Part shown: positions 2,647 to 5,408 of the stretch, piece by piece
Layout: the number at the start of each line of letters is the position of its first letter
Numbering within the stretch: the first letter of the stretch is position 1
Assembly (NCBI GenBank): GCA_031278575.1
Contig: JAITKD010000004.1
Location: 1 to 5,408, forward strand
Direction of reading: 5' to 3'
Length of the DNA: 5,408 nucleotides
Source of the DNA: Spirochaetaceae bacterium
GTDB lineage: Bacteria; Spirochaetota; Spirochaetia; Treponematales; Breznakiellaceae
Notes under the pieces: model-generated
What the model was told of the DNA's origin: nothing
Databases searched by the model: none
The model's input: only the letters and a program-made list of their open reading frames with translations
Program-made: the position numbers and the translations under genes

Positions 2647-2737
2647 CTTATTGAACAACGCTATTTAAGGAATGAGGCGCTTTCAGAATCCAACGGCCCA
2701 CAGCCCCCTGATTTTGAAACCGCCTCGAAAGATTTAT

Positions 2738-2745
2738 AAAGGAGG
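2738..2745 (+). promoter_or_regulatory. Strong Shine-Dalgarno that sets the ftsK start
   Basis: AAAGGAGG matches the consensus anti-Shine-Dalgarno complement. It lies 10 nt before the in-frame GTG at 2756. The alternative in-frame ATG at 2672 has only AAGGA touching the start codon, with no usable spacing. The site therefore favours GTG 2756 and makes 2672-2755 untranslated leader. Confidence 0.8.
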
Positions 2746-2755
2746 TTCCGGTTCC

Positions 2756-5131
2756 GTGATTTTGAAAATCTTTTTTTCCCGGCCTGATTATAAATTCCGT
2801 CTGGCGGCGGTGATAGGCGCCCTGATTTTGGGTATTTTCTCCCTTTTTTTGATTTTTTCCATCGCCGTTTCCCTTTTCAGTTTATCGGGGTTCCCCGCGC
2901 TGCCGGTGGATTTTTTGACCAACGCCTATGGGATGCTGGCCTTTATCATTCCCCTGTACTTTTTGGGGATGGCCCTGATCCTGGCGGATCCCCGCTATAA
3001 GCCCGGCCGGATATTTATCCTTAACGCCGGGGTTTTCCCCTTCCTGACCCTGGCCATTGGTTTTGCCTTTCTCCGGGATTTCGCCTATTATTCGGTACGG
3101 ATCGCCCTCCTCGTATCCCTGGGGAGAACCGGTTTTTGTTTTCTGGTTATTACCCTGACTTTTATTGAGGGCGTCATCATTATGGCTTTGGTTTCCCTTT
3201 TTTTCCCCGGGGAACCGCGGGGGCTTGATCCAAAAGACAAAACCGGCCTGTCCGAAGCCCGCCGGGGCTTGCTCCCTCCGCCCCAAACGACCGGGGGGGA
3301 TCTTTATATCGAAGCCGCTCCCCTGAGTGAAGGAAGCGGCCAAAACCAGATCCTCCTTCCGGCGGTTGATAAAAACGACCCGCCGGAATTTTCCGAATTA
3401 CCCCCCCTGTCCGGCAAAGCGGCCTTTAAGGAAGCCGAATCCCCCCAGCTTATCCGGGAGCGGGTGGAACAATTCGGCGCTTATATTGAGGAGCCTGACT
3501 TTTTTGAAGACGTCCGGGTTTTTGAGCCCCGGGATGCGGTTTTTTCCGGGGAAACGGAAGACGGGGACGGACCGGACTATGCCGGGGAAGAGGATCCGGA
3601 GGACGGGACGCCCTACGCCGAAGACCCCTGGGTAAAAGAGCCGGATCGGGAAGATGCCGAACCGGAAGAACCGGTCAGCCGGGGAACGGAACCAAAAATA
3701 GGGAAGATAAAAAAACACGGCCCCTACCGGGTCCCGGTGGAGGGGATCCTCAACCAATACCCCGACGGCCAATACTGGATCATCGATCAGGTTACCCGGG
3801 ACGCCGCCATAACCCTCAAGGAAACCCTGGAGGAATTCAAGATCCAGGCGGAGGTAACGGGGATCCGCAAGGGCCCGGTGATCACCATGTTCGAGATCCT
3901 CCCCGCTCCCGGGGTCAAGCTCTCCCGAATCGTGAACCTCCAGGACAATATCGCCCTCCGCCTGGCCGCCTCATCGGTGCGGATCGTGGCCCCTATTCCG
4001 GGGAAACACGCCGTGGGGATCGAGGTGCCCAACAAAAAACGGAACATCGTCTCCTTCCGGGAGATCATCGAGGGGGAATTACAGCGGGAGGGCAAGAAAC
4101 CTGAGATCCCCGTGGTTTTGGGGAAGGACATAACCGGGGAGGCCCAAACCGTGGACCTGGTTCAGATGCCCCACCTGCTCATCGCCGGTTCCACCGGATC
4201 GGGCAAGTCGGTCTGCGTCAACTCCATGATCCTTTCGATATTGTACCAACGGGCTCCCGCGGAATGCCGGCTGATCCTCATCGATCCCAAAATTGTGGAA
4301 CTCAAACTCTACAACGATATTCCCCATTTGTTAACCCCGGTGATCACCGAGCCGAAACGGGCCTTCCAGGCCCTTCAATACTGTATCTACGAGATGGAGC
4401 GGCGTTACGCCTGCCTGGACTCCATGGGGGTCCGGGACATCCGCAGTTACAACAAACGGATCCGGGAACGGGGGATCGCCGCGGAACACATGCCCTATAT
4501 CGTGGTGGTGATCGACGAATTCGCCGACCTTATGGCCACCACCGGCAAAGAACTGGAATCTACGGTGGCGCGTCTTGCGGCCATGAGCCGGGCCGTGGGG
4601 ATCCACCTGGTCCTGGCCACCCAGCGGCCCTCCATCGACGTGATCACCGGCCTTATCAAGGCCAATATCCCCAGCCGTATCGCCTTTATGGTGGCCAGCA
4701 AGATGGACAGCCGGATCATCATCGACATGGTGGGGGCGGAAAAGCTCCTGGGTAAGGGGGATATGCTCTACGCCGGGGTGGTGGACCCCTTCCCCGTCCG
4801 TATCCAGGGGGCCTTTGTCTCCGAAGAAGAGGTGGAGCGGGTGGTGGAGTTGGTGAAGACCCTGGGGTCCCCGGACTATATCGACGACGAAATTTTCTAC
4901 GACGAGGACGACGAGGCCGCCCCCTCCCTCTTTTCCGAGGGGGAAGACCCCCTGTACGACAAGGCCCTGGAGGTGGTGGTGCAACAGGGCAAGGCCAGCG
5001 CCAGCTATATCCAGCGGCGGCTCAAGATAGGCTACAACCGGGCCGCCCGGCTGGTGGAAGAAATGGAACACCGGGGCGTCGTCGGGCCCGCCCAGGGGTC
5101 GAAGCCGAGAGAGCTACTCAAAGGCGTATAA
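2756..5131 (+). CDS. ftsK: DNA translocase FtsK/SpoIIIE
   Basis: A septum-anchored hexameric ATPase that pumps chromosome DNA during division and, in well-studied bacteria, activates XerCD dimer resolution. The protein has 791 residues from the GTG chosen for its Shine-Dalgarno. Four membrane segments lie at about 16-42, 57-77, 85-106 and 126-150. A linker (about 152-320) is strongly acidic at 245-310 (many Asp/Glu, Pro) and ends in a basic patch (KIGKIKKHG). The alpha/beta motor starts near Tyr324. Walker A is GSTGSGKS (478-485, Lys484), Walker B is VVVIDEFADL (Asp587, Glu588), and the family signature TQRPSIDVITGLIKANIPSR starts at Thr622. The gamma winged helix (about 732-791) contains QRRLKIGYNRAARLVEEME and ends in QGSKPRELLKGV. 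This domain reads orienting octamers (KOPS/SRS) in relatives. The linker is short compared with E. coli FtsK and close to Bacillus-type translocases. All key residues are intact. The last 12 codons are duplicated downstream, an unusual arrangement. An ATG at 2672 would add 28 residues of unlikely leader. Confidence 0.96.
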   Translation: MILKIFFSRPDYKFRLAAVIGALILGIFSLFLIFSIAVSLFSLSGFPALPVDFLTNAYGMLAFIIPLYFLGMALILADPRYKPGRIFILNAGVFPFLTLAIGFAFLRDFAYYSVRIALLVSLGRTGFCFLVITLTFIEGVIIMALVSLFFPGEPRGLDPKDKTGLSEARRGLLPPPQTTGGDLYIEAAPLSEGSGQNQILLPAVDKNDPPEFSELPPLSGKAAFKEAESPQLIRERVEQFGAYIEEPDFFEDVRVFEPRDAVFSGETEDGDGPDYAGEEDPEDGTPYAEDPWVKEPDREDAEPEEPVSRGTEPKIGKIKKHGPYRVPVEGILNQYPDGQYWIIDQVTRDAAITLKETLEEFKIQAEVTGIRKGPVITMFEILPAPGVKLSRIVNLQDNIALRLAASSVRIVAPIPGKHAVGIEVPNKKRNIVSFREIIEGELQREGKKPEIPVVLGKDITGEAQTVDLVQMPHLLIAGSTGSGKSVCVNSMILSILYQRAPAECRLILIDPKIVELKLYNDIPHLLTPVITEPKRAFQALQYCIYEMERRYACLDSMGVRDIRSYNKRIRERGIAAEHMPYIVVVIDEFADLMATTGKELESTVARLAAMSRAVGIHLVLATQRPSIDVITGLIKANIPSRIAFMVASKMDSRIIIDMVGAEKLLGKGDMLYAGVVDPFPVRIQGAFVSEEEVERVVELVKTLGSPDYIDDEIFYDEDDEAAPSLFSEGEDPLYDKALEVVVQQGKASASYIQRRLKIGYNRAARLVEEMEHRGVVGPAQGSKPRELLKGV

Positions 5132-5200
5132 GGCCCTTTGGCCGTGAATAGCAGGAGGCCCCCGCCGGGGGCATCCTGCTATTCGTAGACCCTGCGCGCG
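5092..5200 (+). repeat. Direct repeat copy 1 (ftsK 3' end plus downstream hairpin)
   Basis: This segment matches 5300-5408 at 103 of 109 positions, with an offset of 208 bp. It covers the last 12 codons of ftsK, the TAA, a short GGCC-CTTT-GGCC hairpin (5132-5143), a long hairpin (5146-5184) and the start of a GC-only palindrome. Mismatches are at 5095, 5098, 5101, 5110 and 5114 (all in codons, all synonymous) and at 5188 (noncoding). Homology fades upstream of 5092. Confidence 0.93.
5146..5184 (+). terminator. Strong hairpin after ftsK, possible terminator
   Basis: GAATAGCAGGA (5146-5156) pairs perfectly with TCCTGCTATTC (5174-5184). After a single G/A mismatch, GCCCCC (5158-5163) pairs with GGGGGC (5167-5172) around a GCC loop, giving 17 pairs in all. 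Two G-U pairs can extend the base to 5144-5186. It begins 15 nt after the ftsK stop, a typical terminator place, but no T-run follows. It may act instead as a bidirectional or Rho-dependent 3'-end stabiliser, or be part of a repeat element. Confidence 0.55.
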
Positions 5201-5207
5201 GAGCGCG
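5195..5207 (+). repeat. Short GC-only palindrome
   Basis: CGCGC and GCGCG flank a GGA loop, giving five G-C pairs, followed by GGCTTTCCC. The T-run is too short for a standard terminator. The right edge of the window stops within the matching sequence of repeat copy 2. Confidence 0.4.
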
Positions 5208-5267
5208 GCTTTCCCAACAGCGTCGGCGCGGCGTGGCGCCCATGAGGGCCGCTGTCCCCCGCAACGG

Positions 5268-5291
5268 GCCGGAGGGCTTTAGCCGTCCGGC
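5268..5291 (+). repeat. Hairpin within the segment between the two repeats
   Basis: GCCGGAGGGC (5268-5277) pairs with GCCGTCCGGC (5282-5291) around a TTTA loop, giving nine pairs and one G/G mismatch. It lies just before repeat copy 2. Together with the palindrome at 5195-5207, it makes the 5201-5299 interval almost fully structured and unlikely to code. Confidence 0.5.
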
Positions 5292-5300
5292 GGCGCCGTC

Positions 5301-5339
5301 CAAGGATCAAAGCCGAGGGAGTTACTCAAAGGCGTATAA
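5301..5339 (+). pseudogene. Duplicated ftsK C-terminal tail (12 codons plus stop)
   Basis: Read from 5301, the sequence spells QGSKPRELLKGV and TAA, the exact C-terminus of the FtsK encoded just upstream. Five codons differ (CAG/CAA, GGG/GGA, TCG/TCA, AGA/AGG, CTA/TTA) and all keep the amino acid. The frame is closed upstream by a TAG at 5280-5282 and no start precedes it, so it is a detached gene end and not a gene. The differing codons in this copy are mostly A- or T-richer than those of the rest of ftsK here, which hints at a different source strain. Confidence 0.85.
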
Positions 5340-5353
5340 GGCCCTTTGGCCGT

Positions 5354-5392
5354 GAATAGCAGGAGGCCCCCGCCGGGGGCATCCTGCTATTC
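5354..5392 (+). terminator. Second copy of the strong hairpin
   Basis: This is base-for-base the same as the hairpin at 5146-5184, with the same 11-bp outer stem, G/A mismatch, 6-bp inner stem and GCC loop. It lies 15 nt after the TAA of the duplicated ftsK tail. If copy 2 is an ancestral gene end, this was its original 3' structure. No T-run follows. Confidence 0.5.
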
Positions 5393-5408
5393 GTATACCC
5401 TGCGCGCG

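Follow-up and report, generated by a model that had tools for sequence, protein, structure and literature searches.

How does the end of ftsK come to stand twice in one stretch of DNA, and has only one of the two copies ever closed the gene? This question is raised by a contig of a Spirochaetaceae bacterium (contig C148 of genome bin G000, a bin that is 60% complete). The contig was analysed over its complete length of 5408 bp, which is called the window here. The first-pass annotation had described the 12 C-terminal codons and the stop codon of ftsK as duplicated 208 bp downstream, with five differences in five codons that are all transitions and all silent, and direct comparison of the copies (Table 1) reproduced this. 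The ftsK-end duplication is real and recurrent. Between the two ends lies a structured repeat whose core is a member of a dispersed, array-forming family, a point that is new relative to the earlier claims. We see an even chance that the ftsK end and the 109-nt repeat make up one unit, which replication or recombination of the cell itself would add, remove and exchange.

A second ftsK end in four genomes

Copy 1 reads CAG GGG TCG AAG CCG AGA GAG CTA CTC AAA GGC GTA TAA and copy 2 reads CAA GGA TCA AAG CCG AGG GAG TTA CTC AAA GGC GTA TAA. The duplication stood as first described and only its length had to be revised: the direct repeat comprises 121 nt with 92% identity at a period of 208, including 69 nt past the stop codon. 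Copy 2 lies in a different reading frame from ftsK, since the period of 208 is not divisible by 3, and the TAG at 5280-5282 in hairpin H2 of the repeat is an in-frame stop six codons ahead of it. Since the contig stops inside copy 2 of the direct repeat, a further ftsK-end copy may lie beyond the contig end.

The first-pass annotation had proposed to look at ftsK loci of related genomes, and the same layout was indeed present in some of them. The FtsK C-terminus served as query against 195 family genomes and matched in 156; among the matches listed, 150 distinct ftsK ends were compared, 143 of them with at least 220 nt downstream. A second ftsK end was present in three of the 150 (G000, G169 and G193), with peptide scores of 64-65 compared with 36 for the next best. 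In a fourth genome, G003, which belongs to the genus of G000, the second end is complete and copy 1 is cut at the contig end, where five codons including the stop are left. G169 and G193 belong to two further genera and show the layout of ftsK end, 107-110-nt repeat and ftsK end, so that three genera including that of G000 are represented. The repeat periods in the four genomes are 208, about 170, 167 and 192, and the elements measure 109, 110, 109 and 107 nt. The junction is fixed: in all four genomes the Gln codon (CAR) of the copy starts 18 nt past the CTTTAG of the hairpin loop.

The contigs of G169 and G193 continue past both copies into other DNA, and therefore the layout is not merely an assembly artefact. 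This weakens the explanation by chimeric assembly, already raised in the first-pass annotation, in which copy 2 of the window would result from the joining of two strains. The window contig does end within copy 2, and in the bin G101 the ftsK ends on two contigs are similar as far as the stop and different after it. Nevertheless, copy 2 is preceded by the repeat and not by ftsK, with the same junction as in the two contigs that run on, and we regard a chimera as very improbable.

A search for the pattern of the end codons, which matched in 127 of the 195 genomes, revealed no more close pairs, nor did any contig carry a second end farther away, with draft contigs limiting the search for distant ends. 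Moreover, no additional second end was present at 80 loci of named genomes, of which 12 were new. These loci came mostly from Treponema sp. and Spirochaetaceae, Breznakiella homolactica included; we take the isolates behind these genomes to be largely insect-gut bins.

Several other loci deserve mention. In G101 the second ftsK match lies on another contig, which starts within ftsK; the ends at C66:1-300 (L367) and on C181 (L368) are near-identical and unlike directly past the stop, as if the site behind ftsK were variable between strains. G095, from another genus, has two ftsK C-termini on separate contigs. Past the single ftsK end on its contig C241 (L047), 29 nt are identical to those behind the ftsK end of G003 (L010). 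The identity reaches as far as the opening arm of the repeat's hairpin H1, where the sequences diverge; this identity could be a remnant of the same unit or reflect a shared transfer. In G003 (L010, minus strand) an ATG follows directly after the in-frame TAG at copy 2 and would open a putative 18-residue peptide, MPGGAAQGSKPRELLRGV.

Table 1. Features at the ftsK end of the window (5408 bp)
Feature	Position	Strand	Basis or remark
ftsK, 819 aa, FtsK_alpha + FtsK_SpoIIIE + FtsK_gamma	2672..5131	+	Open reading frame list, Pfam; own 3' end is copy 1
Direct repeat copy 1, ftsK coding end and 69 nt past the stop	5080..5200	+	
Final 12 ftsK codons and stop, copy 1, QGSKPRELLKGV*	5093..5131	+	
39-nt hairpin behind ftsK	5146..5184	.	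19-nt arms, 95% complementary
Structured intergenic repeat, 109 nt	5189..5297	+	From dispersed array-forming family
Hairpin H1 of the repeat, CGCGC-GGA-GCGCG	5195..5207	+	By eye
Hairpin H2 of the repeat, TTTA loop at 5278-5281	5268..5291	+	Arm covariation across copies
Direct repeat copy 2	5288..5408	+	Truncated at contig end
ftsK end copy 2, five silent transitions	5301..5339	+	
The same 39-nt hairpin, behind copy 2	5354..5392	.	
12 nt matching the letters of 5189-5200, possible start of a further repeat copy	5397..5408	+	Cut at contig end

Besides ftsK, the window contains the end of a LysM protein and a lytic transglycosylase-like protein with an SLT domain (open reading frame list, Pfam).

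Coding constraint between the copies

To judge the silent differences, five transitions were placed at random in copy 1 of G000, and zero amino-acid change resulted in 0.5% of the trials (five of five differences silent, P 0.005). Similar results were obtained for G193, where three of three differences are silent (P 0.048), and for the final five codons of G003, where six sites differ, three of which lie in the codon of the only residue change, Lys to Arg (P 0.0095). Among the matches listed, both Lys and Arg are found at this position in relatives. Copy 2 of G000 and copy 2 of G003 are separated by 13 differences with one Lys/Arg change, which none of 200,000 random placements reached. At codons 1, 2, 3 and 6, copy 1 of G000 matches copy 2 of G003, and therefore the silent changes would most simply lie on copy 2 of G000, the supposedly dead copy. 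Because the differences are silent or Lys/Arg only, both copies have likely served as real ftsK ends; this had been suggested earlier and remains the best reading.

A different explanation assumes independent tandem duplications in each lineage with a dead copy 2, the silent pattern being small-number luck or the result of ongoing but inconsequential gene conversion. Recent duplication or conversion does occur, as the G169 copies are identical across the 39 coding positions, and the copies within a genome share lineage-specific residues, e.g. GSRPRELLRGA in G193. However, a dead copy fits poorly with the constraint seen in the three diverged pairs and between the second copies of G000 and G003, or with a junction spacing that is the same in four of four genomes, and we consider this explanation clearly unlikely. 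Two observations point to exchange between the ends. The 39-nt hairpin is present behind both G000 copies and behind neither G003 copy. The G000 copies differ at 5 of 39 coding positions compared with 1 of the 69 positions that follow up to the contig end (Fisher P 0.022). Such an excess in the coding part is not predicted by a single duplication followed by decay, while a mosaic produced by exchange would account for it.

Copy 2 might also be retained for a function at the RNA level, in processing or termination, and not as a spare protein end. Hairpins flank it on both sides, and the region 5132-5188, which holds the first 39-nt hairpin, folds with a z-score of -6.2. A terminator scan found none, and no terminator-like T run was found at the hairpin. 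The differences fall at silent positions, which a constraint on the RNA would not single out, so that a role of this kind appears highly unlikely.

The terminal Pro-Arg-Glu arginine is encoded by AGA or AGG in 61 of 147 family ftsK ends, compared with 72 of 688 arginines in the preceding 65 codons. Horizontal transfer of ftsK ends between genera was also considered, and the 19 ends compared gave no consistent sign of it: some pairs, such as G193 and G182 (0.87 at the end, 0.70 upstream), resemble each other more at the end, and many others less. A TCG+AGA group of eight ends, picked by these two end codons, is about equally alike at the end (0.55) and upstream (0.54).

The structured repeat and its copied flanks

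The four inserts share a short hairpin recognised by eye, which is CACGC-GAA-GCGTG in G169 and CGCGC-G..-GCGCG elsewhere, followed by a middle part that resembles GGC(G/C)T(A/G)GC and by another hairpin, whose loop is CTTTAG. A sequence-only model (R1) was built from 11 copies, the ftsK copies included, whose top scores therefore follow by construction. It matched 79 of the 195 family genomes at E <= 0.001. In an order-wide sample of 390 genomes 55 were positive at E <= 0.0001, of which 54 belong to the same family. At most 20 candidates per genome were scored in the family search and at most 10 in the order-wide search, so that copy numbers are lower bounds. Counted at E <= 0.1, there were 65 matches in G169, 18 in G003, 3 in G000 and 1 in G193. 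Single copies and head-to-tail arrays both occur, and several lie at contig ends. The repeat family was seen almost exclusively in one bacterial family, adjoins gene ends and tRNA genes and stands at several draft contig ends.

Among 129 distinct units, the 62 with CTTYAG in the H2 region were used to count complementary H2 arms. The arms pair in 44 of the 62 copies with 14 different arm triplets, compared with a mean of 5.8 and a maximum of 13 in 1000 shuffles. The structural claim rests on this covariation, as folding of the whole element was not clearly better than that of shuffled sequences (z +0.2 to -1.6). H1 lies outside the minimum-free-energy fold; similar stems of other sequence were seen by eye in other genomes. 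Rfam gave no match at the element in seven sources at E up to 0.5, and no tRNA, tmRNA or known RNA was found as the insert. BOX elements are built from modules, and the present family resembles them in its dispersed copies, conserved stem-loops and variable unit number, as well as in an intergenic position that was judged from the loci read. A literature search revealed nothing relevant on repeats in Treponema or termite-gut genomes and nothing under the wording of gene-end replacement.

Copying of neighbouring DNA is not confined to ftsK. The upstream flank recurs beyond the element in 25 of 85 loci compared with 2 of 251 mismatched pairs (score >= 20). At three loci the unit starts with 7 nt of a tRNA 5' end, namely CGCCGGC of a tRNA-Leu in G170 (L211), CGCTCCA of a tRNA-Ser in G173 (L240) and CCCCGGC of a tRNA-Leu in G003 (L265). 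By eye these resemble the cores of ordinary arrays, such as CGCCCGC (L223), CGCCCGG (L204) and CGCCCAA (L241). As tRNA 5' ends are included, the copying is not restricted to 3' ends. At a tRNA-Pro gene of G172 a 43-nt copy of the 3' end lies across the element from the full gene (L209:1438-1480 and 1730-1805). At a further locus (L281, contig C33 of G169) an apparent partial second tRNA-Leu, seen by eye, lies between a full tRNA-Leu (1648-1730) and the repeat and is joined straight to the latter.

Proposed unit exchange, possible insertion and known systems

How could a gene end become part of such a unit? We propose that a unit consists of a left core, a leader, H1, the middle, H2 and a right end. 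The leader is short at other loci and would correspond at ftsK to the gene end with the intergenic stretch behind it. New units would be added in head-to-tail order, the right boundary being fixed about 16 nt past H2 and the left boundary set wherever a short core-like stretch, CGCCCRR, lies upstream. The Pro-Ala-Gln codons of ftsK (CCN GCN CAR) would supply such a stretch and, with these codons acting as the core, the ftsK unit would carry the entire gene end. The usual linker in G169 is CGCCCAAG (L273) and its ftsK junction is GGCCCAAGG, in which the Ala-Gln codons might serve as the core. Units would grow, be lost or be exchanged through replication slippage or recombination, and recombination between the two ends would switch the copy that is joined to the rest of ftsK. 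Copies that no longer encode a functional FtsK tail would not outlast such a switch, and under purifying selection at the joined end only silent changes would remain. The agent that moves the ftsK end would thus be replication or recombination by the cell itself. If this is true, the locus would hold an unusual intergenic repeat whose own unit includes part of an essential protein-coding gene, together with a silent-site record of ftsK end replacement.

Several observations weigh against unit exchange. A tandem duplication predicts a full second element after copy 2, which is absent in G169 and G193 and partial in G003. A lone element looks more like an insertion-like event bounded by long direct repeats. 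At the junction the codons right before the CAR codon differ in sense between the copies, with Pro-Ala against Ala-Val in G000 and Gly-Pro-Ala against Ser-Ala-Ala in G193 and against Arg-Ala-Ala in G169. The majority of the 25 flank copies resemble ordinary adjacent units and not gene ends, and the core motif is weak, with CGCCS at 37 of 71 left ends and a stricter 10-nt form at 12 of 71, counts for which a chance expectation was not computed. Moreover, the number of changes behind the P values is small, and the assemblies of the bins are drafts. Finally, exchange is deduced from the sequences of the copies, and no recombination event was observed.

The lone element keeps alive the explanation that a site-specific recombinase acting in trans targets the Ala-Gln codons of ftsK and inserts there small cassettes of ftsK end and repeat, each of which would bring a new gene end and displace the old one downstream. 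Such insertion would fit the order of direct repeat, element and direct repeat, with no further element, in G169 and G193, the identical junction across three genera and the constant element length. It would also fit the copies at three tRNA genes that start at the same point, 7 nt in, and the 43-nt copy beyond the element at tRNA-Pro in G172, which resembles att repeats. Direct repeats of the target gene end on both sides are likewise a feature of elements moved by tyrosine integrases. However, tRNA-Leu and tRNA-Ser are copied at their 5' ends, and no integrase gene was found in or near the element. The first-pass annotation had favoured insertion driven by an integrase, and this was not supported: the core of 107-110 nt is too small for an integrase gene, and full-size relatives or large elements with a far second ftsK end were not found in the 127 pattern-matched draft genomes.

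A dedicated integrase was not evident in the genomes either. G000, G193 and G091, bins that are 60-74% complete (G000 and G193 60-64%), have two tyrosine recombinases each. These are probably XerC and XerD, as 9 of the 11 genomes examined, with G193 and G091 among the nine, show such a pair at a spacing of about 5 kb; in G000 the two lie on different contigs. The integron integrase model TIGR02249 was above its cut-off in none of the 11 genomes and in none of 14 controls, so that this search had no positive control, and weaker matches were obtained in all 11 genomes and all 14 controls. On balance we consider insertion of cassettes in trans rather unlikely. A Y1 (RAYT-like) transposase was rejected as a partner of the repeat, as it had no match in G076, G173 and G193, which all carry the repeat; the other 8 of the 11 genomes had 1-29 matches. 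The G000 bin alone contains 29 Y1 (IS200-like) matches, e.g. C158:2037-2336, C226:7200-7499 and C70:519-815, compared with 5 in G003 and 0-3 in nine relatives.

Returning to the unit of ftsK end and repeat, its closest analogies are of three kinds. BOX, RUP and REP/BIME are described as short interspersed intergenic repeats of many copies that are palindromic or composite (PMC3049150, PMC3733652, PMC2817692). Judged against these descriptions, the present element is likewise short, intergenic, interspersed and multi-copy. It differs from them in that it has no Rfam match, measures about 107 nt, has a hairpin with a TTTA loop and carries a coding gene end at ftsK. As in integrative elements that restore gene 3' ends, the insert has the gene end on both sides and brings a replacement end; in contrast to them, its core of 107-110 nt is free of genes and no dedicated integrase is evident. 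Streptococcal integrative and conjugative elements at ftsK enter the 5' end, according to a passage of PMC4701971, whereas the ftsK copies described here are of the 3' end, which also speaks against cassette insertion.

For integrons, a passage of a 2013 survey gives them as absent from two termite-gut Treponema species (PMC3607928). In our study no integron integrase exceeded the cut-off, with the control result given above, and the AAC/GTT boxes of attC sites were not seen at the four ftsK junctions, which were inspected by eye only. Like integron cassette arrays, the present units combine a cargo with a structured site of ~100 nt, lie head to tail and keep their structure while the sequence drifts. 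It is improbable, though of interest, that insect-gut Treponema possess a miniature cassette system with the repeat as its recombination site, in which units of gene end and structured site would be captured, exchanged and stacked at the ends of essential genes and of tRNA genes and the ftsK tail would be a swappable cassette.

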